Notes under the pieces: model-generated
What the model was told of the DNA's origin: nothing
The model's input: the letters and a program-made list of their open reading frames with translations, nothing else
The model's database searches: none
Assembly (NCBI GenBank): GCA_913020665.1
Contig: CAJVZI010000005.1
Location: 1-59,167 of the forward strand
Length of the DNA: 59,167 bases
DNA from: an uncultured bacterium
GTDB lineage: Bacteria; Fidelibacterota; Marinisomatia; Marinisomatales; UBA1611
Direction of reading: 5' to 3'
In this document: positions 16,181 through 44,020 of the stretch, piece after piece
How the letters are laid out: every line of letters starts with the position of its first letter
Numbering within the stretch: position 1 is the stretch's first letter
Made by a program: the position numbers and the translations under genes

Positions 16181-16286
16181 AAGTGCGCTAAATGTGGCAA
16201 AAAAAAGGTTTAAAATCAATAGTGTGAATCAATTCAGGGTTTCCTTTGTTGATTTCATCTTGTTCCGGCTAATTTCAAGCAATCAT

Positions 16287-19130: not shown

Positions 19131-19138
19131 GATCAATA

Positions 19139-20952: not shown

Positions 20953-22887
20953 ATGGCAGATAATACATTTAAGCCTCAACCTAAAATCTCGGAAAGAGCA
21001 CATATCTCTTCATTGGAACAATATGGAGAACTCTACAAGCGTTCAATCAATGACCCAACAGAGTTCTGGGAGGAAATTGCTCAAAGACTTGATTGGTATA
21101 AGCCTTGGAATAAGGTGAGGGAGTTTGACTTTGTTAACGGGGAAATAGAATGGTTCTCTGGAGGAGAATTAAATGCTTGTTATAATTGTATAGATAGACA
21201 TATCAATGAAGGTCATGGTGAAGATATTGCTATTATTTGGGAAGGGAATGACCCAAATCAATCTAGAAAATTTTCCTATAATGATCTTTTGAAAGAAGTA
21301 TCTCAATTTGCAAATGCCCTAAAAGAACTAGGCGTGCAGAAAGGGGATAGAGTTTGTTTATACATGCAAATGATTCCTGAATTAGCTATCGCTGTTTTGG
21401 CGTGCGCACGTATTGGTGCAGTTCATTCTGTGGTTTTTGGAGCTTTCTCAAGTGACTCTTTGAGAGACCGTATTAATGATTCGGAATGCAAGATCTTGGT
21501 AACACAGGACACTGGTGTACGAGGGACCAAGCAAAATATTCCGATGAAGGCAAATGCCGATCAGGCTTTATTTGATACTCCATCTATCGAACATGTTATA
21601 GTTGTACGAAGGACAGGAGAGCCTGTTAATATGGATGCCAAGCGTGATCTTTGGTGGCATGAAGCAACATCTGGAGTCAGTGCAAGATGTGAACCTGTGG
21701 CTATGGACTCTGAAGACCCTCTTTTTATCTTATACACGTCTGGATCGACAGGTAAGCCTAAAGGTGTATTGCACACAACAGGTGGTTACTTGGTTTACGC
21801 GTCATTCACTCATCAAATGGTATTTGATTACCATCCAGGAGATATTTATTGGTGTACAGCTGATCTGGGTTGGATAACAGGTCATTCCTATATTGTTTAT
21901 GGCCCATTATCGAATCGAGCGACAACCATTATGTTTGAAGGTGTACCAAATTATCCAGATTTTGGTCGCTTTTGGGATGTGGTTGACAAACATAAAGTCA
22001 ATCAATTCTATACAGCACCTACAGCTTTACGCGCATTGATGAAAGAGGGAAATGAATGGGTTTCTTCTAGAGATCTATCTTCCTTGAGATTACTAGGTAC
22101 GGTTGGAGAACCAATAAAAGAACCAGAGTGGAAGTGGTATTATGATATTGTTGGCCAAGGACAATGTCCAATTGTTGATACGTGGTGGCAAACAGAGACA
22201 GGCGGTATTTTGATCACGCCTTTGCCTGGTGCGACACCTACTAAACCTGGTTCTGCAACCTTGCCATTTTTTGGAGTAGAACCTGTATTATTAACTGAAG
22301 ATGGAAAAGAGATAGAAGGAAACAATGTGTCTGGTTTACTGGCATTGAGATCATCATGGCCAGGACAAATGCGGACTATCTATGGAGACCATAAGCGATT
22401 TATTGATGTATATTTTTCTCAATGCCCAGGCTATTATTTTACAGGAGATGGTGCGCGAAGGGATGAAGATGGTTACTATTGGATTACTGGACGTGTGGAT
22501 GATGTATTGAATGTTTCTGGACATAGAATTGGTACGGCTGAGGTAGAGGGTGCTATAGGGAAAGCAAATGGTGTTGCTGAAGCTGCTGTTGTTGGCTTTC
22601 CACATGATATAAAGGGACAGGGCATCTATGCATTTGTAACTCTTATGACCGGAGTAAATGAGTCAGATGAAATATATAGTGGTATTTTAGAATCTGTCAA
22701 AAAAGACATTGGTCCACACGCTAAGCCTGATGAGATACAGTTCACACCTGCATTACCTAAGACCAGATCGGGAAAGATCATGCGTAGAATTTTAAGGAAA
22801 ATAGCAGAAGGTGACCTAGATAATATGGGTGATACTTCAACACTTGCAGACCCTAGTGTTGTAGAAAGTCTTACGAAAGGACAGTAG
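20953..22887 (+). CDS. acs: Acetyl-CoA synthetase (AMP-forming)
   Basis: A 644-residue enzyme converting acetate, ATP and CoA to acetyl-CoA, AMP and PPi. Seen: the phosphate-binding loop [39 protein letters not shown] (acetate-pocket region), the hinge and A8 motif [20 protein letters not shown], and the C-terminal lysine in [14 protein letters not shown] (K608), the residue acetylated by Pat-type enzymes in other bacteria. Length is standard (~645-655). An AAAGG sits before the ATG. The 3' end overlaps the convergent HEAT/cNMP protein gene by 17 nt. Confidence 0.98.
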
Positions 22888-25800
22888 TTAATTTTTTATT
22901 CATATCCCTTACTCTCTTCGTTAGCATCCTCACTATTTGCCTCATAATATCAGGATTACTTGCCATAAGTTCATAAAAACCTTCTTGATCTATTTTCAAT
23001 AAGATGCTGTCCTCAATAGCAGTAGCCCCAGCCGATCTGGGTTCTTGATCTAATAATGCCATTTCACCGATGCAATGACCGCCCTCTAAAATTGCTATTG
23101 ATTTATTATCCTGAGTCACATTTATCTTACCAGAAATAATAACAAATAATGAATCCCCTTGTTCACCTTCCATGAATATGTTATCGTTTTGCCCGGTTTC
23201 TATTTCAACTGAGATTTGTGCTATTTTTGATAAAATATCTCCGGGTATTGTTTGAAAAAGATCAACAGATTTTAACAAAAGGGTTTTTTCGAGTATTGAA
23301 TACATTGTTTGTGACTCCTGGCTTGAAAGATTATTATGCAAAAAATTTCGGTTAAGATAATCTCGTTCTGAATTAGTAAAAAGTTTAGTGTCTAATAGGT
23401 GTTCGGGTATCTTATCCCACTTTACTCTTTTTAAAACGGCAGTGTTTTCATTTTTTAGAAGATATTGGGTTGCAATACTTGTTTTCCATTGATGTGGATT
23501 CTCGATCCAGTAGATGAGCATCTCATCTTTTGAAGATAAACCTTGGTTGAAAAACTCATTCGCAAATGATAACGGATCCGACTCTGGATCTATTAAAGGA
23601 ATGAGTATTTTAATGGTGTTCGAAGAAAAGGTAGACTCTACAAGCTCCAGCACAAGCGGAATTAACTCCATGTCTCCGCTTTCAATATATCTTATGTATG
23701 TCTCAATGGGCACATTAGGATCTTTGAGAGTACCAAGTTTCAATATTATACGTGTTATTAATATGAGATCATTTTCAATGTGATCTATCACGAGATCTGC
23801 TCTGGTATTTTTGTATATATCGTGTTTAAAACTATGTAACTGATATGCTCTCTTTGCTAAGGTCTGTATATTATTATCTACTTTTTTAAGTTCAGAGTTT
23901 TCAAGGTTTCTTGACTTCGAAATTTTTATTAATGCATTACTAGCCTCATCTATAATGGAGAGGTCTGGGTTATCAATACATGATAATATCATTTCAACGG
24001 TATCTTTCTTATCATAATTATGCATTATTCTTAATATGGCTCTTCGTATGCTTTGTCCGGATTTCTTATCAGACATTACATTTAATAATCTATGGTGGGC
24101 CTTATCTTTAGGATAAGAGAGTAATGCTTTCTCTGCATTAATTGCTGTAGATGGCCTAGCTAATAATTTTATAACGTGGTCAAAATAATCGAGGTTTTGG
24201 TTTTCACTAATGATAGTTAACACACTATTATTGATATCATTATTATTTGTATTCAGTAAACTTAATATTTGATCATGGGATACAAGATCTGGGGAAGTTC
24301 TAAGGAATCCAAGCATCTCATAAATAGTATTTTGGTCGCCACTCTGAAAGTTTTTTTCTATCAATTGTTTTGACTCTTTATGATCCGGGTCGTCAGCCAG
24401 TAGTGCGATCGCTGAAGCTGTGCTCAATGCCGTTGATTCATGGTTTAGATAGCCTTTAAGCATGGTTTCAAGTCCCTTGATATTCCTGTCGCTAGCACAG
24501 GCAATTGCATAAGGGGAAACACTATCTTGTTTTATTATCTGATCTTGGATCATCTTATCTGGTAATATATTTTGTTGGTTCCATGAAAGTTCAAGGACAC
24601 CTCTTTGGATTGCAGGAGACCCACCTAAGAATAAATTCTTAATCGAATTTTTCCACGGATCAAGTGGGAGAGTCCATAAAAGATCAAGAGCAAAAAGTTG
24701 CTTGAACTCATCTTTTTCATTAAGGACCTTATCTAGTGTCTCTACAGTTTGAGCATCATGTACATCGAATTGTACTTCATCCAGGTTTAATTGTCTATTA
24801 TCTATGGATCTTACTATCTCTGATACGTAGCCTTCTTTTAATTTAATAGCATCCCATAGCCATATTGCAGTAACTGCAAGTACTATAATACTCAATAGGT
24901 AAATATTAGAATCTGTTATCAAGTTTAAGTAAACTAGTAAAAAGATAACTAGTCCTGCAAACCCCTCAACACCGGACTTTAGAGTACCATCAATGATCGG
25001 TTTTGAACGCTGCCTTTTTTTTATGCTTAATGGCAACCAGAGTATTTCTTTAATAGCATTGTTAATTGAGAATTTGAACACTTGGTCTGAAAATTTTGTT
25101 ATGAATACAGTAAGTAATGAACCGACTAGTAAAAAACCAGTTGATCCAAAAGATAGAGTAATGGGGAGTATAATAAGTCCTATGAGTATGCCAAAACGTG
25201 TCAGAATAAAACTAGTTACAAAAAACTGCATGATCAATGTTGCAATACCCGTGTACATATAGTAGGTACCAAAAAAGTCCACTAGGTCATTTTGATTTGG
25301 AAATGCCTCTGAAGACATGATCTTGAATTGATAATCTATTATTCGAGAAATGAACGCAGAGCATGCAACCATGATCGCAATGGCTTTTAAGTAAGGGTCA
25401 AATTGGACCTTGTTATCTTGTATATTTTGTTCAATTTCTTGGATATCTACTTTTATGTAAGGCCTTACAAAATGACTCATTATTATACTGGTGATCAGAA
25501 AAATTATTGTCAGGTATAATAGATTCTCAGAGCCGTATATCTCAACAAAGGGTTTAATACTATAACCAGCACCAATAGCTGCAATAGACCCTCCGGCAAT
25601 GATCAAGGGGAACAGCCGTTTGGCTTGCCTAGGATTAAAAACCTCTCCCGCTAGGATCCAAAATTGCATTATAGATAGAATAGTTATTATCTCCATCCAG
25701 ATATAGAATGCAGGTATCACCCAGCCTGCCATATGTAGTTGGAAGACTAGCAAAGATATAGAGAAGAAAGATCCAGCAAGGATCATCAGGTTGATCTGAT

Positions 25801-26020
25801 CTTTGTTGGATGTTAATTTTTTATATGCTTCAATTGCCAAAGCCATGAACAGAGCAATGAAGATATACATTAGAGGCAGATATGTTCGATCAAAGTTTAT
25901 GAGAAATATTGCATCTCGAACAGCTGCACCCGTAATACAAGCGCCTGTTATACAAAAGAAAATAATAAATAGGATGAGAATAGGGCGTTTCTCATTGGGT
26001 CTGATCTTTAAAAAGTTCAT
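22871..26020 (-). CDS. Nucleotide-transporter-like membrane protein fused to HEAT repeats and a cNMP-binding domain
   Basis: A 1049-residue fusion. Residues 1-~400 are a ~12-helix domain resembling the Npt1/Npt2 ATP:ADP antiporter (TLC/NTT) or MFS fold: [20 protein letters not shown] at the N-terminus and [20 protein letters not shown] in the central loop. Residues ~400-900 are helical HEAT-like repeats (for example [20 protein letters not shown]). Residues ~925-1049 form a cyclic-nucleotide-binding domain with [20 protein letters not shown] and the phosphate-binding cassette [17 protein letters not shown] (E986, R995, S996). This suggests a transporter, or a sensor derived from one, gated by cAMP/cGMP. 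What it transports is unknown. An adenylate cyclase gene lies 3.5 kb away. It is divergent from pepA and its 3' end overlaps acs. Confidence 0.8.
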
Positions 26021-29489: not shown

Positions 29490-31856
29490 ATGGCATCAGA
29501 ATCTAAACGAAAATTAGCTGCGATCGTCTTCACAGATATCGTTGGTTTTACGAGATTATCTGCTGAGAATGAGCCCGCAGCATTAGAATTATTAGATAAG
29601 CAAAGGGAGCTCTTACAACCCATCGTTCATTCATACAGAGGTGAATGGCTAAAAGAGATTGGTGATGGTTTATTGCTTACATTTGAGACAAATCTTGATG
29701 CTGTAGAATGTGCTGTTGAGATCCAAAAGCAAGTTCGATCCGTAGATAATCTCAACCTAAGAATAGGAATTCATCAGGGAGAGGTGGTTTTTCAAGGAAA
29801 CGATGTTATCGGAGATGATGTGAATATAGCATCCCGAATTGAGCCATTTTCTGCATCAGGTGGAATTGCAATATCTGGACGGGTTAACTCGACTTTAGAT
29901 CGTGACCCGAATTATAAAACAATTTATCTTGGGAAACCCCAACTCCAAGGAGTTACGCAAGAGGTGAAGGCATATTGTATCATTTCTCACGGACTTCCGG
30001 AGACCGACCTCTCGCAGGTCAAGGCAAAGCTTGCTCCCGATGACAAAACAGGTTTTGAATGGACTAAAATGTCAGTATTAGGAGCTACCGCTTCTATAGT
30101 TGGAATCCTTACCCTAGCAGTACTTGGTCTATCGGGGTTATCTGCTGATGGAGATGAGATTCCATCGATAGCTATACTCTATATGAAGAATCTTGGTGAT
30201 GCGGATGATGAACCATGGGCATATGGACTTACAGAGGACCTTATTATCGAAATGAGTCGCCTTGGTAACATCCGTGTTGCTTCAATGAACTCTATTACAA
30301 AATATAAAGACTCTGATCTATCTGAAATTGACATTGCGAGGGAATTAGATGTGGGATACACCTTATCAAGTAGTATTGTACGTTCAGAAGGACAATTCAA
30401 TCTTCGATGCCAATTGCAAGACCATAATAAAAATCTTACTCTTTTTGGAAATAAATGGACGGAAAGTCTTGAAAATGCATCACTTATTGTCAATAACCTT
30501 GCTGATAGTCTTTCAAGTAAACTGACCTATAAAAAAAGTGACCATGAGCTGGTCAGCGAAACATATAAAGCTGATCCTGTTGCATATGAATATTTATTAA
30601 AAGGGAAATACAAGGTACAGTATCAGCAAAATTCAGAGGATTGGGAAATGGCTGAAAGCCTATTAAATATGTCAACTGAAATAGACCCTAATTTAGCCTC
30701 ATCCTGGTCATTGTTAGGTTGGATATCATTTCGACAGGGAAAATTCCCAGAAATGAAAAAGTATGCGAAAATGGCTATTAAAACTGGGGAAAAAACAAAA
30801 AGTTATGTTGCGGTTGGTCATGCTTATGAGTTAGTTGGTCTCCATCATGAATACGGTAACAATAATCTTGATTCTGCGGCAATATACTACAAGAGATTTG
30901 TAGATGTATCTGAAAAAATAGACTATAAAAAAGGGTCCACAGATGCATCAAGACATTTATCCAATCTTTTGATAAAACAAGGAAAGAAGGATGAAGGTTT
31001 ACTATACATGGATAGTTCTATTGATATTGCGAGAAAATATGGTGATAAACATGAGCTCGCATTGATATTGCCGAATTATGCAGACCTATTACTTGAGGAT
31101 GGTCAAATTGAACAGGCAATATCAATTCTAGAAGAAGCAGATGGATTAGCGCAAAAATATAAGAAGCAGGTGGCAGCTCAATCGGTCGCAGGCATTTATT
31201 CAGATTACTATACATCTATTGGTGACCTAGAGAATGCTTATAGATATACTATCAAAGCATTTAGGATCGCAGAAGAATTAAATCAGGAACTCATTAGTTT
31301 TGGTTCCTATGTGAGAATGTGTGAGTCTCATTTTTATAGTGGCCGTATTGATAGTACATTTTTTTATTTAGAGAAGATCACAACACTAACGGAGCAACTT
31401 CAAATACCATTCATGGTGTTATTATCAAATTATTATTCAGGAAGATATCACTTTTATAATGGCGACCATAATAGCTCCGTAGAACATTTTAATTTTCTCA
31501 TAGAGAACATACCTGATGATTTTGACCTAAGTATGAGAGTCGTTCCAAAAGCATTCAATTCTATCAACTATAAAAACATGGGTCAGCCTAAAAGATCTTT
31601 AGAGTATATTGACATGATCAAAAATGAAATAGGCAAAGATGATAAGTTCGAGGAAATGGAATATTATAATATCCTTATACAGGCTTTAGAGGAAAATAAT
31701 GAACAAGATTTAGCAAAAAAGTATCTGCTTGATGCATATGATATTATCATGCAGAGATCTTTTAAGGTCAGGGATAGGAAACTGAGAAATGATTTCTTAG
31801 AAAAAAATTACTGGAATCAAAAGATTATAACCTTATACAATAAATTCAATAGTTGA
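29490..31856 (+). CDS. Class III adenylate cyclase with TolB-like and TPR domains
   Basis: A 788-residue protein. Residues ~8-165: class III cyclase with metal aspartates in IVFTDIVGFTRLS (D16) and IGDGLLLTFE (D59), transition-state residues in GDDVNIASRIE (N112, R116), and the base-specificity pair K55 (WLKEIGD) and D105 (NDVIGDD), the combination typical of ATP use. All catalytic residues are intact. One transmembrane helix follows (VLGATASIVGILTLAVLGL, ~195-215). Then comes a TolB/FlgO-like segment IPSIAILYMKNLGDADDEPW and, from ~350, tetratricopeptide-like repeats. The cyclase is therefore cytosolic and the TPR part probably periplasmic, coupling an envelope signal to cAMP. It stands alone, 104 nt after the EEP gene. 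Confidence 0.9.
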   Translation: MASESKRKLAAIVFTDIVGFTRLSAENEPAALELLDKQRELLQPIVHSYRGEWLKEIGDGLLLTFETNLDAVECAVEIQKQVRSVDNLNLRIGIHQGEVVFQGNDVIGDDVNIASRIEPFSASGGIAISGRVNSTLDRDPNYKTIYLGKPQLQGVTQEVKAYCIISHGLPETDLSQVKAKLAPDDKTGFEWTKMSVLGATASIVGILTLAVLGLSGLSADGDEIPSIAILYMKNLGDADDEPWAYGLTEDLIIEMSRLGNIRVASMNSITKYKDSDLSEIDIARELDVGYTLSSSIVRSEGQFNLRCQLQDHNKNLTLFGNKWTESLENASLIVNNLADSLSSKLTYKKSDHELVSETYKADPVAYEYLLKGKYKVQYQQNSEDWEMAESLLNMSTEIDPNLASSWSLLGWISFRQGKFPEMKKYAKMAIKTGEKTKSYVAVGHAYELVGLHHEYGNNNLDSAAIYYKRFVDVSEKIDYKKGSTDASRHLSNLLIKQGKKDEGLLYMDSSIDIARKYGDKHELALILPNYADLLLEDGQIEQAISILEEADGLAQKYKKQVAAQSVAGIYSDYYTSIGDLENAYRYTIKAFRIAEELNQELISFGSYVRMCESHFYSGRIDSTFFYLEKITTLTEQLQIPFMVLLSNYYSGRYHFYNGDHNSSVEHFNFLIENIPDDFDLSMRVVPKAFNSINYKNMGQPKRSLEYIDMIKNEIGKDDKFEEMEYYNILIQALEENNEQDLAKKYLLDAYDIIMQRSFKVRDRKLRNDFLEKNYWNQKIITLYNKFNS

Positions 31857-32010
31857 TCTCATAACAATTATTCTATCATTTTTATATTATTTCATTATGC
31901 ATTAATGCGTCATTAGCTATACATAAATATGACAATTCTGTTAGGGCTTTTTGATGCGCTATAGTTAAAATTAGTCACGTTAAATCGTGCATTATATTAA
32001 GGAGAGGAAA

Positions 32011-34794
32011 ATGCTTAGATCATTGAATATATATATATTGCTGATTACTTCAATTCTTATCGCGGATGAAGGTTCAATATCTGGCCAAGTGCAAGACTTA
32101 TCCAGCCCGCTGTATGGAGCCAATGTTTTCCTTGTTGGAACTTCTATGGGTGCGACCACTGATTCATCAGGTAAGTATCTTATTGAGGGTATCCCAGTTG
32201 GTAAGTATATATTGCAAGCAGACTATATCGGTTATGAATCAGTTAGCATAGATCTATATATATCAGAGAGCGATGAAGCATCAGAAGAGCTTTCCGAATC
32301 AAATTTTTCAGCTAAACTTGGACTAGAAGATGACGAATCATCTGATATTATTAAGGGTAATTCACTCCGTAATATTGATTTTACACTAGAAGCTTCATCC
32401 TTAGGACTTAATGAAATTGTAGTATCTGCTTCAAGAAAAAAAGAAAAGATAACTGATGCACCTAGTGTTGTTTCAGTTGTGAATCAACAGACGATTAGAA
32501 GAAGAGTAGGAGTAACTGATTTTAATAGACTAGCCAGCTTTGCTAAGGGAGTTGATGTCACATATTATGGTATACAAGGTGCTCAGATCAATGCAAGAGG
32601 TTTTGATGGTGCTTATAGTACACGATTCAGACAATTTGCTGATGGGGTCTATCTAGGTGAATCAGTATCAGGCCAGGTATACTCTGTAATTTCTGGGCCA
32701 CCCAAAGAATCAATCTCAAGATTAGAGGTGCTATTCGGACCACAGGCAGCACTATATGGCCCAGATGCCTCGCAGGGTTTGCTTAATATCATAACAAAGC
32801 ACCCAATGGAAGATGAAACAAATGAGATTAATTTTAGTATTTCCAATTTAAATGATCCTCGCTTGGGAGCTAGATTTGTGAAAAACTTTGATAAAGTTTC
32901 CATAGATATAAGTGGAGAGGCAAAAATTGCTTCAGAACTACCTTATGGTAATAAGGATGATGAGATATACTGGGTAGTGGGTGATACTTTGTATTTGAAT
33001 GATGATCTATACGATCCGCTCGAAATGAGCAAAAATCAATTAAGAACTAATATCTACTATAGGATCAACAAGCTCAATGAGTTTTCCGTATTTTATAATT
33101 ATGTAGAGGGCAAAGGTTATGCCATGGGTAGTCTTGGTCCTATTTACAATAGAGGTCTCAATAGACATCAATATGGATTTAGATTTAATAATAATAACCA
33201 CTTTTTTAGATTCCTCAGAACAAATCAAATTGCTGATGCAGCGTTCATGCTCAGTCTTGGACTAACACAGGTCATAAACAGGAATCCGGATGGTACTAGC
33301 CTTTCATGGCAAGAAGCACTTGAAAAATTTGAAGATTACGACCAAGGTTGGTGGTTAAAATACAATAGTGATGATTTCTTGGTGGATTATCAATATAATA
33401 AGAAACTGACAGATAGATTGAATTTAGTTGCAGGACTAGATTATGAATTCAAGGATCCATATACTGATAGGACAACCATAAATGATCATGGGGTGAGTCC
33501 AATCACTGGTGCTACTGGTGGTAAGGATATCTATGAATATAGATATGGTGTTTATGGGCAGGTTGACCTTTTGATCAATAATGAGTACACCATAAACACT
33601 TCTGTACGGTTTGATAATCATGAATACTATGGTAATAGTATCTCCCCAAGGGCATCTATAGTAAGAAAGAATTTTCTTAATGGAAATTTAAAATTAATAG
33701 CTGGAACAGGATTTAAAGCCCCGACGCTTTTAGAAAGAAATGTCTATGCTGGTCAAAGAAATATTGCGAATGGAAAAGCAGGTGATCCTGACCCTGTTCT
33801 TGGCGAATATGGAGTTATATATCCACATGATTGGGTAATGGATGCAGTTTCTATGGGCTCATCTGATGGATTTACGATTGTAGATTTTCAAGATATGGAT
33901 GGAGACGGTGTATATAGTGATCAGGATGTACTCATTAATAGTAAATATATTGAGCCATTACAATTGGAGGAACATCAATCACTTGAGCTAGCATATACTG
34001 GTCTTATCAATAAGAAAAATCTTTTTGAATGTAACTTTTATACTGGAAGATATAAGAATTTCAAAGGTCCATTGACTGTATTTGGTGTTACTGGCCCCGG
34101 ATGGGTCTATGTTGTGCAAGCATTCCCCAATCCATTACCAATTGATGGTATTAGGCAAATAAATTATGGTAATAAACTTATAGACCCAGACCCCGTTCCA
34201 CAGTTTACATATGCCCTGGCCTATCCTACATTGCCTCTTGATGTTACATTTTTTGGTTTTGAGACAGGATGGAGGCATCTTCAAGATAAATATGAGTTAT
34301 CCATGAATTTTTCCTATTTCAATGATGATGATCTTGTTAACAAAAGAAAAAAGGGAGAGAGGTATTTAAACTATCTTTCAGCGACCGATCTTTCTGATAG
34401 CATATATATTGATTATCATGATTATGTCAATATCTATAGCAATACACCAAATTTAAAAGGCTCTCTTTCACTGACATATTTCGATAGCTTCATCAAAGGG
34501 TTGACCACTGTATTTACAGTTAAAGGTACTTCGCCTTATGATTTTGTAAGTGGATATTTTGAAGCTACGGAAGAGGGTAAAGGTGAAGAGTCGCAGGTTG
34601 GGCAATCATGGTCTGTTAATCCTGGGCAAATTGGAGGAGAATTCTATTCAGACCTAGACTTTGTATATGAAGTTAATAACAATATCAATATTGGATTCTC
34701 TATAAAAAACTTATTCGAATCCCAAGCTCCTACGTACCCTTTATCTCCAAAGATACCAAGGTATTTTCTTATAGAGACAGGATATAATTTTTAG
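32011..34794 (+). CDS. TonB-dependent receptor with N-terminal carboxypeptidase-regulatory-like domain
   Basis: A 927-residue outer-membrane receptor. The start is ATG 32011, set by a strong AAGGAGAGG just upstream; an in-frame GTG at 31987 lacks such a site. Signal peptide LRSLNIYILLITSILIADEG, then a CarboxypepD_reg-like domain (SGQVQDLSSPLYGANVFLVG, IPVGKYILQADYIGYESVSI), an acidic linker (~85-125), and the plug (EIVVSASRKKEKITDAPSVV; VLFGPQAALYGPDASQGLLN). A 22-strand barrel follows and ends in the C-terminal aromatic strand IETGYNF. A calcium-loop-like DMDGDGVYSDQD lies at 33892-33927. It imports a ligand using TonB energy; the ligand is unknown. Its N-terminal domain is clearly paralogous to that of the next gene. 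Confidence 0.9.
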   Translation: MLRSLNIYILLITSILIADEGSISGQVQDLSSPLYGANVFLVGTSMGATTDSSGKYLIEGIPVGKYILQADYIGYESVSIDLYISESDEASEELSESNFSAKLGLEDDESSDIIKGNSLRNIDFTLEASSLGLNEIVVSASRKKEKITDAPSVVSVVNQQTIRRRVGVTDFNRLASFAKGVDVTYYGIQGAQINARGFDGAYSTRFRQFADGVYLGESVSGQVYSVISGPPKESISRLEVLFGPQAALYGPDASQGLLNIITKHPMEDETNEINFSISNLNDPRLGARFVKNFDKVSIDISGEAKIASELPYGNKDDEIYWVVGDTLYLNDDLYDPLEMSKNQLRTNIYYRINKLNEFSVFYNYVEGKGYAMGSLGPIYNRGLNRHQYGFRFNNNNHFFRFLRTNQIADAAFMLSLGLTQVINRNPDGTSLSWQEALEKFEDYDQGWWLKYNSDDFLVDYQYNKKLTDRLNLVAGLDYEFKDPYTDRTTINDHGVSPITGATGGKDIYEYRYGVYGQVDLLINNEYTINTSVRFDNHEYYGNSISPRASIVRKNFLNGNLKLIAGTGFKAPTLLERNVYAGQRNIANGKAGDPDPVLGEYGVIYPHDWVMDAVSMGSSDGFTIVDFQDMDGDGVYSDQDVLINSKYIEPLQLEEHQSLELAYTGLINKKNLFECNFYTGRYKNFKGPLTVFGVTGPGWVYVVQAFPNPLPIDGIRQINYGNKLIDPDPVPQFTYALAYPTLPLDVTFFGFETGWRHLQDKYELSMNFSYFNDDDLVNKRKKGERYLNYLSATDLSDSIYIDYHDYVNIYSNTPNLKGSLSLTYFDSFIKGLTTVFTVKGTSPYDFVSGYFEATEEGKGEESQVGQSWSVNPGQIGGEFYSDLDFVYEVNNNINIGFSIKNLFESQAPTYPLSPKIPRYFLIETGYNF

Positions 34795-34845: not shown

Positions 34846-37800
34846 ATGAAAAAACTTATTGTCATTCTTCCCTTATTGGTTGGAATGAAAATATTTGCAG
34901 ATGATGGGTCTGTCCAAGGTAGCGTCCAAGACAGATCTGGTGAACCATTATGGGGAGCCAATGTATATCTTCTTAGTACCTCATTTGGTGCTTCAACAGA
35001 CTCTGCGGGAACCTACCTGATCAAGGATATCCCTGTGGGTAAATATACTCTTGTTTGTGATTATATCGGCTATAGATCTCAAAGTCAAATTATCTATATT
35101 TCTGCATATGATGCAGATAGCGATAACGATACTGATCAATCCTATCTTGATAAGATGGGCTTGGAAGAGGATGAGGATATAGGTCTTGATATGATCAAAG
35201 GCAATGATCTAAGAGGAATAAACTTTGATCTGGAGGAAGATGTATTTAATAGTCAAGAGGTTGTTGTTACTGGCATCGCATCTGAAAGGTCTGTTGAAGT
35301 CTCAGAGGTAGCGGTAACTAGGCTAAAACCAAGAAAATTCAATGAGTCCACATCTTACACTGATTTTGGTTCATTATTGATGGCAAAGGTAAGCGGGCTT
35401 GATATTAGAAAAGCGTCTGGTACTGTGGGTGGAGGTTTTAGGTTTGACATGAGAGCGGGGGGCGGATTGAATGGTAACGAACAGCCCGTCGTTTACATTG
35501 ATGGAATGCGTGTGGTAAATGATGAAATAGGGGGAACAGGATCTAACGCGTTGACCACTGGAGGTCAGGGGATATCTACATTGCTTGACTTCAATCCGGA
35601 TGATATTGAAAATATTGAAATATTAAAGGGGCCAGCTGCTGCAACTAGCTATGGAACTAATGGTTCCAATGGTATTGTTTTTATTGAAACTAAAAAAGGG
35701 AAAGCAGGTCAGGATGGACCAGTATTTAATTACAAGTTTACCTCAGGAATAAATAGTCCTCAGTTCGAGGTCGACCAAGGATTCCAGAACCGTGATCTGT
35801 TTCATAGTCTTTTATCGGATGGTGCAATTCGTGATAATTATTTTAGCATGAGTGGTGGGGACTACACTTTCAGACATTTTATATCTTTATCGCAAAGGCA
35901 TGAAGAGGGAATGGTAATGTGGAAAGATAAAAATTTCTTTGATAGAAATACCCTAAGAGCAAACTTTGATATTATTCCACAGGATAACATAACCCTGAGC
36001 TTTAACACATCTTATAGCACACTTGATGCTGTTATGCCACCAAGTGATAATCATATATATAGCATATCCTATAATACCCTAGTAGCCTACAATCCATGGC
36101 AAGAGTCAGATAGTGCATCTATCTCACAATTGGGTATTAATTTTAAAACAAAAAGATTAATTAGTTCTGCATCGATCAAATACTATCCTTTTAGTAATAT
36201 AGATCGCTTTGGACTTAATTCATTTCAACTTAATGCAAAGCTAGGCCTTGATGATGCGGAGCGGCATAATAGCAATTTATTTCCAGCAGGTTATAACTAT
36301 GCACTCTTTAATACCGGGACTAAAGCATTAGAAAAAACAAATGAAAGAAATACAATATTTGATTTAGGAGCAGCTCACAACTTTAGTACGGGCCAAATGA
36401 GCGCTACAACCAGTCTGTCAGCGCAATTTTTTGATCGAAAGTGGGAAGGAATTGAAATTGCTCGAGATTCTTTTGGCCAGAATGCAGTCACTGACATCGG
36501 CTCAGGCTCAAACATCACCCTTGCTGGCGAGTGGTTGGGAAATTCAAGGGATGCTGGTGCCATTGTAACTCAAGAAATGTCATTTTTAGATCAGCACTAT
36601 CTTACATTGAGCTATAGAACGGACTATAGTTCTGCATTGGGGTCTGCATCTAGATCCATTGGGTATCCAGGTATGCGTTTTTCAACAAGATTGGATAAAC
36701 TCAATTTCGTACCATATCAATTCCAAATGTTAAAATTCAGAGCGGCTTACGGTGAGAGCGGAGTGTTACCCGCTCATACGGATGGCCAGAGCCTATTATG
36801 GTCTGGCAGTGTGGGAGGAAGTGGTTCAGGAGCAATGATCTCTGGAGTTGGGAACCCTGATATCGAGCCTGAAAGGATCAAGGAGTTTGAATGGGGGCTG
36901 GATATGACCTGGAAAAATTTATTCACACTCGAATTATCTTCATACCAGCAATGGGCTGAGAATTCAGTTATCTATCGTCCTCTTGCACCTTCGCTGGGCT
37001 ATGGAAATTTGTCTAAGCCAGATAATATTGGGAGTATGGAGATGGAGGGTTTTGAAGCACTATTAAGGGCCTCTCCCATAAGAAAAAAAGACTTAAATGT
37101 TAACATGAGTCTGTCCTATAGTTGGAATGATAACATTGTGAAAGAAATGGGTGATCCAGTTTTTGATAACTATGGTCTTGTGACAATTAGAGAAGGATAT
37201 CCAAAATACTCCTTATGGGGTCAGAATGTAGTGGGCGCTGTAATTGATACTTTTGATCTTGCTTTATTGGGGATGCAGGGCTCGGTTCCTTTCTTTGACC
37301 CTGTTAATGGGTATAATTTAGAAGAAGAGGGTTTTCTTGGAAGATTGGTGCCAGAGCATACCGGGAATTTTTCTGTAAATGTTGACTATAAAATCTTTGA
37401 TTTTTTCATGCTGTTTGAGAGGAAGACCGGGTTTAAAGCAGCTGTTGGAGGCATGTGGTGGGCAACCGGACCAAATAATAATGGTCATACCGGTTGGCTG
37501 AGTTCCATGCAAAAACTTGGGCTTGATGGTTTATTTGCCGCATTGAATTTCATTCCTGTAGAAATGACACGTCAGGTTACTCCAATTGTCAATGACGATG
37601 AGATTGTTGGTACCATAAACTATGACATCTTTAACGCAACTGGAGGAGCTGTAATACTTCCTGTCGCTGTACCCGGAAGAGAGGCAGAATGGGAGCAAAC
37701 CACTAATGAATTCGCACAAGCACATCCAGCATTCTCATCAAACTACGCTGAGGATGGAAGCTACACAAGGCTAAGAGAAGTAAGCTTTGGTGTTAATCTT

Positions 37801-38040
37801 GATAGATATTTGCCCTTACTAAAGCTGGAAAATGCAATTTCTGGTTTAAGGGTATTTGCCTCGGCAAGCAATGTAAAACTTTGGAGACCTAAAGGGACTG
37901 TCGGAGTTGATCCAGAGTTGAACATGTCTGGCGCAATTACTGGTCCAGTTGGGACCACTGGTACAGGATATAGGAGCGTTGAGGTTCATACAATGCCCTA
38001 TCCAACTACTTATAACTTTGGTTTAAATATTAGGTTCTAG
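34846..38040 (+). CDS. SusC/RagA-like TonB-dependent transporter
   Basis: A 1064-residue outer-membrane transporter. Signal peptide LIVILPLLVGMKIFADDG, CarboxypepD_reg-like domain (VQGSVQDRSGEPLWGANVYL, IPVGKYTLVCDYIGYRSQS), acidic linker, then SusC-type plug: SQEVVVTGIASERSVEVSEV, QPVVYIDGMRVVN, DFNPDDIENIEILKGPAAAT and YGTNGSNGIVFIETKKGK, the Bacteroidota-type signature. The barrel ends with TMPYPTTYNFGLNIRF. With the SusD lipoprotein 3 nt downstream it forms a SusCD pedal-bin importer for glycans or peptides. No glycosidase or peptidase lies beside it, so the ligand cannot be named. GGAG precedes the ATG. Confidence 0.92.
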   Translation: MKKLIVILPLLVGMKIFADDGSVQGSVQDRSGEPLWGANVYLLSTSFGASTDSAGTYLIKDIPVGKYTLVCDYIGYRSQSQIIYISAYDADSDNDTDQSYLDKMGLEEDEDIGLDMIKGNDLRGINFDLEEDVFNSQEVVVTGIASERSVEVSEVAVTRLKPRKFNESTSYTDFGSLLMAKVSGLDIRKASGTVGGGFRFDMRAGGGLNGNEQPVVYIDGMRVVNDEIGGTGSNALTTGGQGISTLLDFNPDDIENIEILKGPAAATSYGTNGSNGIVFIETKKGKAGQDGPVFNYKFTSGINSPQFEVDQGFQNRDLFHSLLSDGAIRDNYFSMSGGDYTFRHFISLSQRHEEGMVMWKDKNFFDRNTLRANFDIIPQDNITLSFNTSYSTLDAVMPPSDNHIYSISYNTLVAYNPWQESDSASISQLGINFKTKRLISSASIKYYPFSNIDRFGLNSFQLNAKLGLDDAERHNSNLFPAGYNYALFNTGTKALEKTNERNTIFDLGAAHNFSTGQMSATTSLSAQFFDRKWEGIEIARDSFGQNAVTDIGSGSNITLAGEWLGNSRDAGAIVTQEMSFLDQHYLTLSYRTDYSSALGSASRSIGYPGMRFSTRLDKLNFVPYQFQMLKFRAAYGESGVLPAHTDGQSLLWSGSVGGSGSGAMISGVGNPDIEPERIKEFEWGLDMTWKNLFTLELSSYQQWAENSVIYRPLAPSLGYGNLSKPDNIGSMEMEGFEALLRASPIRKKDLNVNMSLSYSWNDNIVKEMGDPVFDNYGLVTIREGYPKYSLWGQNVVGAVIDTFDLALLGMQGSVPFFDPVNGYNLEEEGFLGRLVPEHTGNFSVNVDYKIFDFFMLFERKTGFKAAVGGMWWATGPNNNGHTGWLSSMQKLGLDGLFAALNFIPVEMTRQVTPIVNDDEIVGTINYDIFNATGGAVILPVAVPGREAEWEQTTNEFAQAHPAFSSNYAEDGSYTRLREVSFGVNLDRYLPLLKLENAISGLRVFASASNVKLWRPKGTVGVDPELNMSGAITGPVGTTGTGYRSVEVHTMPYPTTYNFGLNIRF

Positions 38041-38043
38041 ATT

Positions 38044-39384
38044 ATGAAAAGAATATTAATTACGTTACAAATGTTAATCCTGATGTTAGGCTGCGAGGCT
38101 TTTGTTGAGAACACATCTCCTTCAATTTCCTACGTTACTGATGAGGATATTAATGACCCCGCAAACATCCCATTTCTAATTAATGGTGTATTAAACGATT
38201 ATTCTCGCGCACATTCCTATGTGTCCCTTTGGGCTGACCTACTTTCTGATGTAATGGTCAATGATGGTAGAGTGCAGGGTTCAACTGATGTTAGGGGAGA
38301 ATACCTTGATAATGGGACCTATGATCCTACTGTTGGTACATACGCTCCTCCTTACCAGGCTATTGCGCAGGTTTGGAGATCAGCTAATTCCTTAAGATTG
38401 AAATTAGATGTAATGGATGGTGACCAATCTGCTGAACAAGAAGGATACTTTACAGCATATTTATACCAGGCTCTTCCATATTATCTCCTTGGAACATATT
38501 ATGGAAATGGACCAACCTATCCAGATCATGGTGGCGCGACATTGAATGAGAGTGTTTTTATGTCCACAAATGATCTTTATTCTATGGCGCTTGCCTATTT
38601 TGATTCTGCAATGGTTTATGCTGACGAGCACCAGCAAAAGATCATTCACTCTCTCATTGGAAGGCAATATCTCTATGCTGGTAATTATTCGGCTTCCGCT
38701 CAGCATGCTATTCAAGGATTACAACAAGGCGATGATCCATTCGAGGCAGTCCCAGGTGAGGAAAACCCTTGGCCAAATTGGTACTGGTACGAGGCTGGTA
38801 GCAATAGAACTCGCTATACTCTTGCCTCTAGATTTAAACATTTATTGGGTGAGGATTTTGAAGATACAAATGGAAACGGAACATGGGATACGTCAGAAGT
38901 ATTTATTGACTGTGCTGTTCCTGGTGCAGATGTAGGGCAGGGAGACGGGATCTATAATGGCCCCTCTGAGCCAGAGGAAATCACAAGGCTTCTCATGTCA
39001 GCTGCAGCAATGACACCAGGTCAGAGCTATGTAAGGTATTTTCAAATGAAATACCCCGATGCAGATTCCCCGATTCCTGTTATCAATTGGCAGGAGAACC
39101 ATCTTATTTTAGCTGAACTTGAATTAAGAGGCGAATCAGTTAATGTAAGCGCTGTTGATGCAGTCAATGCGGTGAGAGCTTTCCATGGTCTTTCTTCGCT
39201 TGATAGTATCGACCTTAATTTGCTTCTTCATGAGCGAGATAAAGAATTGTTCTGTCAGGGTCAGAGATTAATTGATCAAAACCGTTTTCCTGATTTACTT
39301 AGTTGGCATATTTCTGGCGAGAACACGTGGCATTACCTTCCAATACCTTATGAAGAAGAATTGGCTAACCCGAACTACCCTTGA
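38044..39384 (+). CDS. SusD/RagB-like nutrient-binding lipoprotein
   Basis: A 446-residue surface lipoprotein. The signal peptide ends in the lipobox MLGC (RILITLQMLILMLGCEAF). The helical TPR-type body shows YQAIAQVWRSANSLRLKLDV and the C-terminal SusD block LLLHERDKELFCQGQRLIDQ / WHYLPIPYEEELANPNYP. It caps the SusC barrel and captures ligand. A calcium-loop-like DTNGNGTWDTSE (38863-38898) is inserted in the middle. It is close to SusC and probably co-transcribed. Somewhat shorter than many SusD proteins (usually 450-550) but looks complete. Confidence 0.85.
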   Translation: MKRILITLQMLILMLGCEAFVENTSPSISYVTDEDINDPANIPFLINGVLNDYSRAHSYVSLWADLLSDVMVNDGRVQGSTDVRGEYLDNGTYDPTVGTYAPPYQAIAQVWRSANSLRLKLDVMDGDQSAEQEGYFTAYLYQALPYYLLGTYYGNGPTYPDHGGATLNESVFMSTNDLYSMALAYFDSAMVYADEHQQKIIHSLIGRQYLYAGNYSASAQHAIQGLQQGDDPFEAVPGEENPWPNWYWYEAGSNRTRYTLASRFKHLLGEDFEDTNGNGTWDTSEVFIDCAVPGADVGQGDGIYNGPSEPEEITRLLMSAAAMTPGQSYVRYFQMKYPDADSPIPVINWQENHLILAELELRGESVNVSAVDAVNAVRAFHGLSSLDSIDLNLLLHERDKELFCQGQRLIDQNRFPDLLSWHISGENTWHYLPIPYEEELANPNYP

Positions 39385-39424
39385 CCTTTATTTTAATGTG
39401 AATATTCTCTAATAAAATAAGAAA

Positions 39425-39784
39425 ATGTCAACAAAGACCCTAACTACAGCGGTTGAGAAGATCGCACCTACCGCAATCTTGAAGATTGATGGTCCGTTCA
39501 ATGATTTTCATGCCAAAGAGTTAATTGGCATTATTGATGACCTACTTACTCAAGAATTTGTACACTTCATCATAAATTTCAAGTTATGTACAGAAGTGAA
39601 TAATTATGGTGTATCAGTATTGATAAGTCTTATAGGATCTATCAATGCAAAGAGTGGAAAGCTTATTTTCACAAATGTTGACCAACAGCTTGAGAAAAAA
39701 TTAAAAATGATGGGGCTTGCAGCTTACGCTGAATTTTATTCTGAAGATAAAATAGCTCTCGAGAGCCTAATAGAAAAACATTAA
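39425..39784 (+). CDS. STAS-domain protein (anti-sigma factor antagonist-like) without the phospho-serine
   Basis: A 119-residue single STAS domain: ILKIDGPFNDFHAKELIGII (strand-helix 1), FVHFIINFKLCTEVNNYGVS (strand 3 to helix 2), SGKLIFTNVDQQLEKKLKMM and GLAAYAEFYSEDKIALESL. In SpoIIAA/RsbV-type antagonists the helix-2 start is DSSG with a serine phosphorylated by an anti-sigma kinase; here it reads NNYG (residues 59-62), so that serine is absent. It starts 40 nt after the SusD stop and ends 27 nt before a SpoIIE-type phosphatase gene. The pair suggests a partner-switching pathway that is either constitutive, works through another residue, or only binds its partner. Confidence 0.82.
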   Translation: MSTKTLTTAVEKIAPTAILKIDGPFNDFHAKELIGIIDDLLTQEFVHFIINFKLCTEVNNYGVSVLISLIGSINAKSGKLIFTNVDQQLEKKLKMMGLAAYAEFYSEDKIALESLIEKH

Positions 39785-39811
39785 ACATAACTTATTAAAC
39801 ATACCTGAACT

Positions 39812-42793
39812 ATGAATAAAAACTTATTACCACATATATATTTCTTTTTATTTATCTTGAATATTATTTCTGCTGATCCATCATCTGGCCAGTGGAAACA
39901 GTTCGTATATACTGATGGGTTATCCAGCAATTATATTTTTGATGTTGAAAAAGATAGTGACGATCGTCTCTGGATAGGTACACAGAATGGGGTCACTCTT
40001 ATTGATGGTGGAAATACTATTAAATACGGAGCAGATAGCGGTCTTCCAGCAGCAAATATAATAAAGGTGGTCAGCCTGGAGGGGACAACCTACGCTGCAG
40101 CCTCAGGACATGGTATATATGTGTTCAATGATGGATTTTTTGAAAAGACAAAGATAATAAAAGGAAAAGATATAGCCACCATGTCAAAGGTAGCTGGTAA
40201 AATTTTTGTTTCAACAAATCTAGAAAATATTACTTATGATGGAAGTGAAGTCTCTTTTATGGGTAAGGGTTTTCCAAATATTAAAGTTAGAGATGTTTTC
40301 TCTTATGGCGATAGAATGTGGTATGCAGCAGATGATCGTATAATAAGTAAGGGTGGTAAAGGGTTTTCAACTGAAAAAATTAATTTCCCAAATACCAAGA
40401 TAAAGATTCAAGCATTCTTGGTTGATGGTGATATCGAATATTTTGGTACAAACCAGGGACTATGGTCTAGAAAAAACAAAGGACAGTTAAAGCTAATTAG
40501 AGACATGAATGTATTATGTCTATCACGGTCTATGGAAGGTGATATTCTCACTGGCACCAAAAAAGGTCTGTATTATTTGCAAGCAGGGAAGTTGGTTAAA
40601 TATAGACCAGATGGAGATGAACACAAAGCATTGGACAAAACTTCCATTCGTGATATCGAGGTCATATCTACAAATGAGATCTGGTATTCCTCGTTTGGAA
40701 TGGGAATTTATTTACATGACCCAGGTACTCTAAGGACATTCAGTTCTAAAGATGGAATAGATGTGGGTGGAATGACCTTCGATATGGTTTCAGATAATGG
40801 GAAGGTCTACATCGCAACAAGGAATGGTCTTTTTGTTTTTGAGAATGAAAGAGTAAAAGCACACTACACTAAACAGGATGGCCTACCATCAAATATTATT
40901 CTTGACCTTGATCTAGATTCTAAAGGTAACCTATGGCTTGCTACAGCTAGCGGTCTATCAAGGTTCTCAGGTTCAAAATTTGATAATTATAATAGGGCAG
41001 ATGGCCTGCCAGCAAAATTAGTAACCACAGTACATGTAGATAAGAAGGATGACTCTATTGTATGGTCTGGATCGGAAAATTCTGGAATTACTCGTTTTGA
41101 CAAAAAAGGTTTTTTTACATTTGCAGTACAAGATGGATTGCCGAGCAACTCTATAAGAGATATTACTCAATCAGATAATGGAGAGCTTTTCATTGCATGT
41201 TATAAGTCCGGTGTAGCAAAGTATGATGGGAAAACCTTTCAATTACTTGAAGAAGGTTTGGATGATAAAAGGGTCATACTAGTCACCATGGGACCTGATG
41301 GTCACCTATGGACAGGGACTGAATCAGCCGGTATTGGAGTTTTTAAGAATAATAATTTTGAAATGATACGTGATTCTGACGGATTGGGCCATAATGAAAT
41401 GTTCTCATTGTTCTATGACGGTGATAGGATGTGGGCAGGAACATTTGGTGGTGGTGTAAGTTGCCTGTCAAATGATACATGGTTCACCTTGCGAGAGACC
41501 GATGGATTAAATAGTAATACTATTGGTGCTGTTGCTGCTATCAGTAGGGACCATTTTTTATTTGGAGGAACAAAAGGTATTTCGATATTCAAATTAGATG
41601 ATAGCTCCTTTAAACTAGATATTGATAATATTCTCACACCAAAAGCAGAGCTATCACTTCATGACATAAAAGATAGCAATATCTCTGGTATAGTTAAGGA
41701 TCGATTTTTTATTTCTGCTAATCCTATGGTATATAACCCTTCTGGAAGTAAGGTCCATTATAGAACTAGAATAAATAGTGGAGGTGAAAAAGCTTCTTGG
41801 TCAGATCTACAAACTTCAAACCAAATATCATTTTTCCCAGAAAATGTTGGTTCATATGAACTAGACATTCAGGCAGTTGATAATAGGATCGCTTTCTCAG
41901 AAATAGTCACAATTCCATTTAGTATCGGTCGCATATGGTATCTTGACCCTAAAACTGCAATACCATTCTGGGGGAGTATATTATTATTGATAGGATTCTC
42001 AACTGTCACATACATCAATTATCGTAAAAAGAGTATAGAAGCTCAAGAACTCCGAGAAGCGGAGATAGAACGCCAGCAGGCAGAGATGGAGGAGGCTAGG
42101 GAGTTTCAACAGGCTATGCTTCCAAAAGAGATGCCTTCAACCGATGATTATGAAATGGTTGGTTTCCAACAGACAGCGACTGAGGTCGGAGGTGATTTTT
42201 TTGATTTTATGCAGAAGGAAGATGGTATGTGGATCGCTATATGTGGAGATGCGACGGGTCACGGGCTAACATCTGGGAATGTAGTTTCCATTACAAAAAC
42301 AGCTATGAGTTCACTTGTTGAAGAAGAACCGATACCAACTTTGGACTCATTGAATGAGACCCTTCTAAAAATGAATATTGGCTTGAATAGAATGTGCCTA
42401 AATATTGCAAATATTGGAAAAGATTCAATTCGTTTCTCATCTGCGGGTATGCCACCTGCATATTATTATTCTGCAGAAAAGGGTGAGCTAGAAGAGGTTT
42501 TGGTTGGAGCGCTGCCACTAGGTTCATTTCCTAATGCGATTCATATGGAACAAGAGATCTCTTTTAAGAATAAGGGAGATATACTTGTGATGATGTCAGA
42601 TGGGCTTCCAGAGGCAGAAAATTTAGATGATGAGATGGTTGGTTATGATAGGACGGAGGAAAAGATCAGGTCTCTTGCAGATAGATCAGCAGAAGAGATA
42701 AAAGATGGCTTGGTTGAACTTTGTGACTCTTGGTTGGATGGTCATGCAGAACTTAAAGATGATATGACATTCGTTATAATTAAGAAGAAGTAG
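39812..42793 (+). CDS. Two-component-type beta-propeller sensor fused to a SpoIIE/PP2C phosphatase
   Basis: A 993-residue membrane sensor. Signal peptide/anchor at the start (FFLFILNIISADPSSGQW). Residues ~25-610: seven-bladed-type propeller repeats of the hybrid two-component kind (DSDDRLWIGTQNGVTLIDGG, DSKGNLWLATASGLSRFSGS, GPDGHLWTGTESAGIGVF). Then a Y_Y_Y-like domain (~640-710), one transmembrane helix (FWGSILLLIGFSTVTYINYR), a coiled-coil linker (EIERQQAEMEEAREFQQAML), and a cytosolic SpoIIE phosphatase with metal-binding aspartates in EVGGDFFDFMQ, ICGDATGHGLTSGN, MSDGLPEAE and KDDMTFVII. Periplasmic ligand would control dephosphorylation of a STAS protein. Normally such propellers drive histidine kinases; here the output is a phosphatase. 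The adjacent STAS gene is the natural partner but lacks the usual serine. Confidence 0.9.
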   Translation: MNKNLLPHIYFFLFILNIISADPSSGQWKQFVYTDGLSSNYIFDVEKDSDDRLWIGTQNGVTLIDGGNTIKYGADSGLPAANIIKVVSLEGTTYAAASGHGIYVFNDGFFEKTKIIKGKDIATMSKVAGKIFVSTNLENITYDGSEVSFMGKGFPNIKVRDVFSYGDRMWYAADDRIISKGGKGFSTEKINFPNTKIKIQAFLVDGDIEYFGTNQGLWSRKNKGQLKLIRDMNVLCLSRSMEGDILTGTKKGLYYLQAGKLVKYRPDGDEHKALDKTSIRDIEVISTNEIWYSSFGMGIYLHDPGTLRTFSSKDGIDVGGMTFDMVSDNGKVYIATRNGLFVFENERVKAHYTKQDGLPSNIILDLDLDSKGNLWLATASGLSRFSGSKFDNYNRADGLPAKLVTTVHVDKKDDSIVWSGSENSGITRFDKKGFFTFAVQDGLPSNSIRDITQSDNGELFIACYKSGVAKYDGKTFQLLEEGLDDKRVILVTMGPDGHLWTGTESAGIGVFKNNNFEMIRDSDGLGHNEMFSLFYDGDRMWAGTFGGGVSCLSNDTWFTLRETDGLNSNTIGAVAAISRDHFLFGGTKGISIFKLDDSSFKLDIDNILTPKAELSLHDIKDSNISGIVKDRFFISANPMVYNPSGSKVHYRTRINSGGEKASWSDLQTSNQISFFPENVGSYELDIQAVDNRIAFSEIVTIPFSIGRIWYLDPKTAIPFWGSILLLIGFSTVTYINYRKKSIEAQELREAEIERQQAEMEEAREFQQAMLPKEMPSTDDYEMVGFQQTATEVGGDFFDFMQKEDGMWIAICGDATGHGLTSGNVVSITKTAMSSLVEEEPIPTLDSLNETLLKMNIGLNRMCLNIANIGKDSIRFSSAGMPPAYYYSAEKGELEEVLVGALPLGSFPNAIHMEQEISFKNKGDILVMMSDGLPEAENLDDEMVGYDRTEEKIRSLADRSAEEIKDGLVELCDSWLDGHAELKDDMTFVIIKKK

Positions 42794-42803
42794 AGCCTAT
42801 TGG

Positions 42804-43901
42804 TTATATGCTGGCTAAAAGTTTATCATAAATAGGTCCCATATACTTCCAATCAAACTGTTTAGCTATACTCTTTAGATTACTTTTATTATCCCTTTTA
42901 GTATTATCTACTGCACGAATTATCTTGCTGTATAATTCATCTTCATTTTTATAAAAATTATCTTCATTATCATTAGATGAGATGAGTTCTGGATAGGTTA
43001 GTCGGCAAGGCAAAATTGGCCATATCTGACAATAGATGGCTTCCATGACACTAGCGCCGAAAAACTCTTGATTTGAGGTTACAGGTAATATATCAGCCTT
43101 CCACAACCACTCTGCATATTCATTAAAGGATTCTGTATAGCCCCATTGAATTATATTATTCTTAAAATCCTCCTTTGCCTGGTCAAATATAGATGGTGAT
43201 CGATTAAAATTCTCACCCAATACTGCTAAACTAAAATCAATGCCACTGTCTTTCAACTTTTCTAAGATAGAGAAAAATAATTCAGGGTTCTTATCATATT
43301 CCCAGCGATGATTCCACAATATCAATGGTCTTTCGTTAGCATTATCAATTTTATGTTCATCAAAACGTTGAAGCTCCATACCCAGATATAGGACCTTAGA
43401 TTTATTATAAATATTGTCAATTGATCCTAATTCTTGGTGGTCAGGGAATTGTTTTAAGAAAGGTTGGAGTTCATTTAAAAAAGAACGCATATGAAACTCA
43501 GAATTAAAAAAGACCTTATCTGCAGAAAGTGCAGAAGAATAGTTGATGAACCCATAATGGGTATCTCTTTTATTTTTTATATCTCTGTCATCAGGCGACC
43601 ATGGGTAGGATAACTGGTTCTCATGAAAATAGATAGCAGTTGGAATATTGTGCGATCTCTCTCTGGTTAAGGATAAAAATGTTGTCAGATCTAGCATATC
43701 GGTCGCTAGGATCAGATCTGGACACCAATCAATTTCATTGAACTCTTTTGCAAGGGTTATTGCACCACCATGCATTCTCCATTTCCAGAATTGACCTTTC
43801 ATTGAAAGAATTCTTATTTCATGTCGGCTAGATCTTTGAAATCCATCAGCCCATTGTTTATGTGAACCAGTGTAGTAGGGTTCAATAAGTAATATTTTCA
43901 T
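42804..43901 (-). CDS. tRNA-queuosine alpha-mannosyltransferase-like glycosyltransferase (DUF3524/GTDC1)
   Basis: A 365-residue GT-B glycosyltransferase. The N-terminus MKILLIEPYYTGSHKQWADG, MKGQFWKWRMHGGAITLA and AIYFHENQLSYPWSPDDRD are characteristic of DUF3524, the N-terminal half of the animal queuosine-tRNA mannosyltransferase (QTMAN, formerly GTDC1). The C-terminal GT4 half shows LILWNHRWEYDKNPELFF and the donor-site SNQEFFGASVMEAIYCQIWP. The family enzyme mannosylates queuosine in tRNA-Asp; activity in bacteria is inference. The open frame extends to 43979 but the extra 26 residues come from the tRNA-Leu region, so the ATG at 43901 is used. No queuosine synthesis gene is in the window. 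Confidence 0.8.
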   Translation of the reverse strand: MKILLIEPYYTGSHKQWADGFQRSSRHEIRILSMKGQFWKWRMHGGAITLAKEFNEIDWCPDLILATDMLDLTTFLSLTRERSHNIPTAIYFHENQLSYPWSPDDRDIKNKRDTHYGFINYSSALSADKVFFNSEFHMRSFLNELQPFLKQFPDHQELGSIDNIYNKSKVLYLGMELQRFDEHKIDNANERPLILWNHRWEYDKNPELFFSILEKLKDSGIDFSLAVLGENFNRSPSIFDQAKEDFKNNIIQWGYTESFNEYAEWLWKADILPVTSNQEFFGASVMEAIYCQIWPILPCRLTYPELISSNDNEDNFYKNEDELYSKIIRAVDNTKRDNKSNLKSIAKQFDWKYMGPIYDKLLASI

Positions 43902-43936
43902 AACATTAAATAAGTTGGGAAATATGAGATCTACTG

Positions 43937-44020
43937 TGCCCGAGACTGGAGTCGAACCAGCACGTCTTTTAGGACACACGGACCTGAACCGTGCGCGTCT
44001 ACCAATTCCGCCACCCGGGC
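43937..44020 (-). tRNA. tRNA-Leu (CAG)
   Basis: An 84-nt cloverleaf on the minus strand: acceptor GCCCGGG / CTCGGGC (one G-U), D arm GCGGAATTGGTAGACGC, anticodon arm CACGG-TTCAGGT-CCGTG with anticodon CAG, long variable arm (class II, fitting Leu), T arm CTGGTTCGACTCCAG, discriminator A. The 3' CCA is not encoded. It lies 36 nt upstream of the glycosyltransferase gene in the same direction. Confidence 0.96.

Follow-up and report, generated by a model that had tools for sequence, protein, structure and literature searches.

The locus described here raises the question of what a sensor with a phosphatase as its output domain does beside a nutrient importer, and to which intracellular target its signal is passed. 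The window, i.e. the whole stretch of 59,167 nucleotides that was analysed, belongs to a metagenome-assembled genome (MAG) of Candidatus Marinimicrobia (G000; 1.83 Mb, 70% complete). Four genes follow each other on the + strand with intergenic gaps of 3, 40 and 27 bp: a SusC-like TonB-dependent transporter of 1064 aa (34846..38040; CarbopepD_reg_2 and Plug in Pfam), a SusD-like lipoprotein of 446 aa with the lipoprotein cysteine at Cys17 (38044..39384), a STAS-only protein of 119 aa, here called STAS1 (39425..39784; STAS E = 4.5e-9), and a propeller sensor phosphatase of 993 aa (39812..42793; Reg_prop E = 7.8e-19, SpoIIE E = 6.9e-28). The STAS1 gene, between SusD and the sensor, was overlooked in the first-pass annotation. 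An additional TonB-dependent receptor (TBDR) gene (31987..34794, + strand; CarboxypepD_reg and Plug; 90% identity in G001) lies 51 bp 5' of SusC. No terminator-like hits were found on the + strand between the four ORFs, and promoter-like hits in the window did not exceed those in shuffled sequence. Orthologs of the phosphatase were present in 7 of the 33 genomes of the family (G000 included) with 62–77% identity to that of the window, STAS1 was directly 5' of the phosphatase in all seven, and SusCD was directly ahead of STAS1-phosphatase in G000, G017 and G019, which represent three genera. The four-gene arrangement is not a matter of chance, because it recurs in two other genera and, in G017, with different flanking genes; judged from gene order, SusC-SusD-STAS1-sensor phosphatase is a conserved unit.

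The importer half of the unit was assessed by family profiles and by modelling. The SusD-like protein fell below the cut-off of Pfam SusD_RagB (E = 0.009), its family profile aligned end to end with solved SusD proteins (3kez, 7e-11), and the top PDB folds for its model, which is of moderate quality (pLDDT 62), were SusD/RagB proteins. A broken or atypical SusD was thus rejected on profile and fold in favour of a divergent but true one. The identity of the SusC orthologs was 86% (G017, G019), 73% (G023) and 59% (G033), and that of the SusD orthologs 77–49% (49% in G033). A SusC-type TBDR (CarboxypepD_reg plus Plug) adjoining susD, and a SusD lipoprotein fold, are the hallmarks of SusCD, and the adjacent genes for the two resemble those of RagAB/SusCD importers; the locus differs from these in lying outside Bacteroidota proper and in having no adjacent cluster of carbohydrate-active enzymes. 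No such enzyme was detected by Pfam in the neighbouring genes, the NamZ gene at 15942 being ∼17 kb away, so that the substrate could be a peptide as well as a glycan.

In the AlphaFold model, the strands of the sensor make up 14 blades by our own count; an Ig-like domain, a long transmembrane/coil helix and the phosphatase follow. The blades form two seven-bladed β-propellers, predicted to be periplasmic (aa 27–608, 39890..41635; all parts on the + strand), followed by the Y_Y_Y-like Ig domain (aa 624–706, 41681..41929), which is Ig-like in the model and sub-threshold in Pfam (E = 0.012), the transmembrane and coiled-coil helix (aa 717–768, 41960..42115; membrane span predicted from the sequence) and the SpoIIE/PPM domain (42221..42784), with its PPM metal-binding motifs intact (GGDFFD, GDATGHG, SDG and DDMT). 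The best PDB folds for the model were the periplasmic parts of the Bacteroides hybrid two-component systems (HTCS) BT4663, BT3049 and BT4673. HTCS proteins have two seven-bladed Reg_prop propellers, a Y_Y_Y-type domain and a single inner-membrane anchor, and are encoded beside SusCD (PMC3243724). The window sensor shares the double propeller, the Y_Y_Y-type domain, the single anchor and the adjacent SusCD; in contrast to the HTCS, its output is the SpoIIE phosphatase only, and no histidine kinase, receiver or AraC domains were found in it by Pfam. Both a SusCD pair beside a propeller phosphatase sensor and an HTCS-type sensor with a SpoIIE output had been proposed in the first-pass annotation; the former is borne out by Pfam, the SusD profile and fold and the recurrence in two other genera, the latter by the three HTCS fold matches and the SpoIIE domain.

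STAS1 stands out among STAS proteins. Its Asn60 (codon 39602..39604, + strand) aligns with the phosphorylated Ser58 of SpoIIAA; the seven STAS1 orthologs all carry Asn here, and of the other STAS proteins sampled, the 35 that could be read at this position all carry Ser. STAS1, as the alignment reads, offers no canonical site for phosphorylation. The substrate with an acceptor Ser/Thr that a partner switch employs is therefore not found in STAS1; a second protein, STAS2, encoded elsewhere in relatives, bears the serine.

In relatives, RsbW and the serine-bearing STAS2 were co-encoded with a GAF/PAS class III adenylate cyclase. RsbW-type HATPase_c_2 proteins are present in G001, G002, G017, G019 and G032; the 70% complete G000 yielded neither a credible HATPase_c_2 match nor a cyclase ortholog, and absences in the family genomes are provisional, as all compared genomes are apparently MAGs. 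The cyclase occurred in 8 of 8 family genomes with an RsbW over the cut-off versus 1 of 25 without (Fisher 6e-7, phylogeny ignored). More distant propeller phosphatases are encoded directly 5' of RsbW in G013, in G032, twice in G019 and on the Bacteroidota contig L143, and in the first three genomes STAS-cyclase follows where the contig continues. The phosphatase ortholog itself takes part in such arrangements: G154 has TBDR-phosphatase-RsbW-STAS-cyclase on one strand, and G033, of another family, has SusCD and the ortholog within one ∼17-kb locus, with SusC-SusD-RsbW-STAS-cyclase-STAS-TBDR on one strand, after which the phosphatase lies in convergent orientation. Like RsbU-RsbV-RsbW and SpoIIE-SpoIIAA-SpoIIAB, the system has an intact-motif PPM phosphatase, a STAS protein and, in relatives, RsbW homologs; it differs in that STAS1 lacks the acceptor serine, that no SigB/SigF-type sigma factor was found and that RsbW and STAS2 are encoded with an adenylate cyclase.

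We favour, at a probability of roughly 0.45, the reading that the importer operon carries its own trans-envelope sensor phosphatase, which feeds an RsbW-STAS switch, probably with cAMP as output. Ligand would enter the periplasm via SusCD (or another TBDR) and bind to the double propeller, and the signal, passing through the Ig domain and the transmembrane/coil helix, would switch on the cytoplasmic phosphatase. The phosphatase would then dephosphorylate the serine of the RsbV-like STAS2 encoded elsewhere in the family, and dephosphorylated STAS2 would bind the RsbW-like kinase. RsbW/STAS2 would release or restrain the class III adenylate cyclase, which is the likeliest target because RsbW and STAS2 are co-encoded with it, and uptake would therefore be reported as a change in cAMP. 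STAS1 may be produced along with SusCD as a non-phosphorylatable component, acting as a constant decoy for RsbW or as a docking partner of the phosphatase. Ligand sensing, the choice of STAS substrate by the phosphatase and the cyclase as target are suggested by gene neighbourhood, and the direction of control is presumed. The more specific version, in which an HTCS-type sensor tied to a TonB receptor/SusCD controls cAMP synthesis via a sigma-free RsbW-STAS switch and the STAS copy of one branch has turned into a non-phosphorylatable operon member, is held more tentatively. If correct, import loci of a widespread, largely uncultured ocean phylum report uptake by Ser/Thr partner switching, probably via cAMP, and not by AraC-type histidine-kinase hybrids; partner switches would gain a second-messenger output, and one sensor module would be seen swapped between signalling chemistries. 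In the open-licence literature, no paper was found that mentions Marinimicrobia together with SpoIIE, nor one evidently about a partner switch with cAMP output.

The alternative that survives best, though we consider it rather unlikely, is that STAS1 and the phosphatase are a self-contained pair that works without RsbW, in which the non-phosphorylatable STAS1 would serve in regulation or docking and another phosphoprotein would be the substrate of the phosphatase. The pair is adjacent in every ortholog, the Asn is invariant, and STAS1 (82–87% identity) is better conserved than the phosphatase (62–77%). Moreover, neither a HATPase_c_2 match nor a cyclase ortholog turned up in the seven MAGs of genus g9 (G022–G028), two of which, G023 (92% complete) and G026, nevertheless retain STAS1 and the phosphatase; G023 has no stand-alone STAS besides STAS1. 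This genus is what gives the alternative its standing, and because the pair is kept there without a detected RsbW or cyclase, STAS1 must have another role at least in g9. Against a self-contained pair, G033 and G154 place the same phosphatase with RsbW and serine-bearing STAS genes, and related propeller phosphatases that adjoin a STAS mostly adjoin an RsbW-type switch.

Improbable in our view is the rewiring of nutrient sensing to sigma-factor partner switching that the first-pass annotation had put forward; in such a scheme RsbW would hold a sigma factor (housekeeping or ECF) and the sensor would set it free. The lineage does have SpoIIE phosphatases, STAS proteins and RsbW homologs, and the classical role of RsbW-type proteins is that of anti-sigma factors (PMC8256260). 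However, one Sigma70_r3 protein was counted in 29 of the 33 family genomes, none in 4 incomplete ones and two in none (ECF factors are outside this count), and no SigB/SigF-type sigma factor was found by this count among the 33. The RsbW-STAS2 neighbourhoods that were inspected had no recognisable sigma gene; the cyclase recurs in them instead. With at most one Sigma70_r3 protein per genome, a STAS1 that lacks the acceptor serine and RsbW-STAS accompanied by a cyclase, the sigma-factor proposal did not hold up. Non-canonical switches in which STAS-only proteins take part are known from Vibrio (SypA) and Bordetella (BtrV), and these retain the acceptor serine (S56 and S55, respectively; PMC8256260). 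The present system resembles them in STAS/phosphatase signalling whose output may differ from a classical sigma switch, and is set apart by the loss of the acceptor serine from STAS1 and by an HTCS-type input tied to a TBDR/SusCD.

The seven family orthologs and two more distant members (G033 and G154) form a clade with support 1.0. A TBDR was found at most 2 genes from the phosphatase in 8 of these 9 and at none of the 23 propeller-SpoIIE loci outside the clade (Fisher 9e-7, inflated by shared ancestry); the chance of at least six of seven lineages having a TBDR there is ∼2e-6 from measured TBDR densities. Of the 23 loci, 12 belong to family paralogs and 11 to propeller phosphatases from other records; at the paralog loci, several of which are short or at contig ends, a few adjacent genes could have been missed, and since the neighbour-gene HMMs were built from these loci, distant SusD or TBDR proteins in other phyla could escape them. 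The right flanks in G032, where the contig is apparently chimeric, and possibly in G017, where there is a GC jump, were left out. In G001 only the last ∼48 SusD codons remain, ∼60 bp after the upstream TBDR, which represents a deletion scar; STAS1 and the phosphatase are intact and under purifying selection between G000 and G001 (dN/dS 0.075 by NG86, a rough ratio with synonymous sites near saturation; by YN00 they were saturated for most pairs). In G023 the SusCD ortholog is on a different contig from STAS1-phosphatase. A lack of association with SusCD in other genomes, which the first-pass annotation had named as its refutation, is not what was observed: SusCD accompanies the ortholog in G017, G019 and G033 (same locus) and, as a scar, in G001. 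The 23 other loci have neither SusCD nor a TBDR. That propeller-SpoIIE genes at large go with SusCD was therefore rejected; the association is confined to one subfamily and is wider for TBDRs than for SusCD. That importer and sensor are mere neighbours, the sensor answering to something else in the envelope, would suit the persistence of the pair where SusCD is lost (G001) or sited elsewhere (G023) and the lack of an adjoining carbohydrate-active enzyme, but it is the least probable alternative given a SusCD link that spans two families and three genera, with flanks that differ in G017 and G033, and other TBDRs beside the phosphatase in G001, G023 and G026, where SusCD is gone from the locus.

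Spread as a mobile cassette, considered for an integrase upstream in G017, is argued against by protein divergence that follows relatedness and by a tree without odd placement, and no relatives were found in the viral contigs searched. Between G000 and G001 (L019), dS was ∼0.55 for the TBDR by the SusCD scar versus ∼1.95 (near saturation) for the phosphatase; the lower divergence suggests recombination at the deletion. On the G032 contig (C75; L054 2747-6538) the phosphatase ORF passes into alcohol-dehydrogenase-like sequence after residue 898, and the contig is apparently chimeric.

A second propeller-SpoIIE protein, of 1123 aa, is encoded in the host genome (G000:C23, L020:5686-11920) and also at L021 and L022; its gene is followed by that of a thioredoxin-like protein and then of a DUF6029 outer-membrane-like protein, in the same order in three genomes of the genus. 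Adenylate-cyclase-TPR proteins are encoded just 5' of TBDR/SusCD pairs in the window (29490-31856) and in two other genera (L099 1039-6144; L100 1364-3817), possibly a further link between cAMP and import. Adjoining the sensor on the - strand (42804-43979) is a homolog of tRNA-queuosine α-mannosyltransferase (QTMAN_N E = 1.7e-63), whose orientation is reversed in G019 (L053). A NamZ exo-N-acetylmuramidase gene, an uncharacterised gene and an MFS transporter gene (15942-20413) possibly form a peptidoglycan-recycling cluster. Finally, a TLC-type ATP/ADP translocase-like protein of 1049 aa with a C-terminal cyclic-nucleotide-binding domain is encoded on the - strand (22871-26020), and its gene is kept beside an M17 peptidase gene in G001 and G023.
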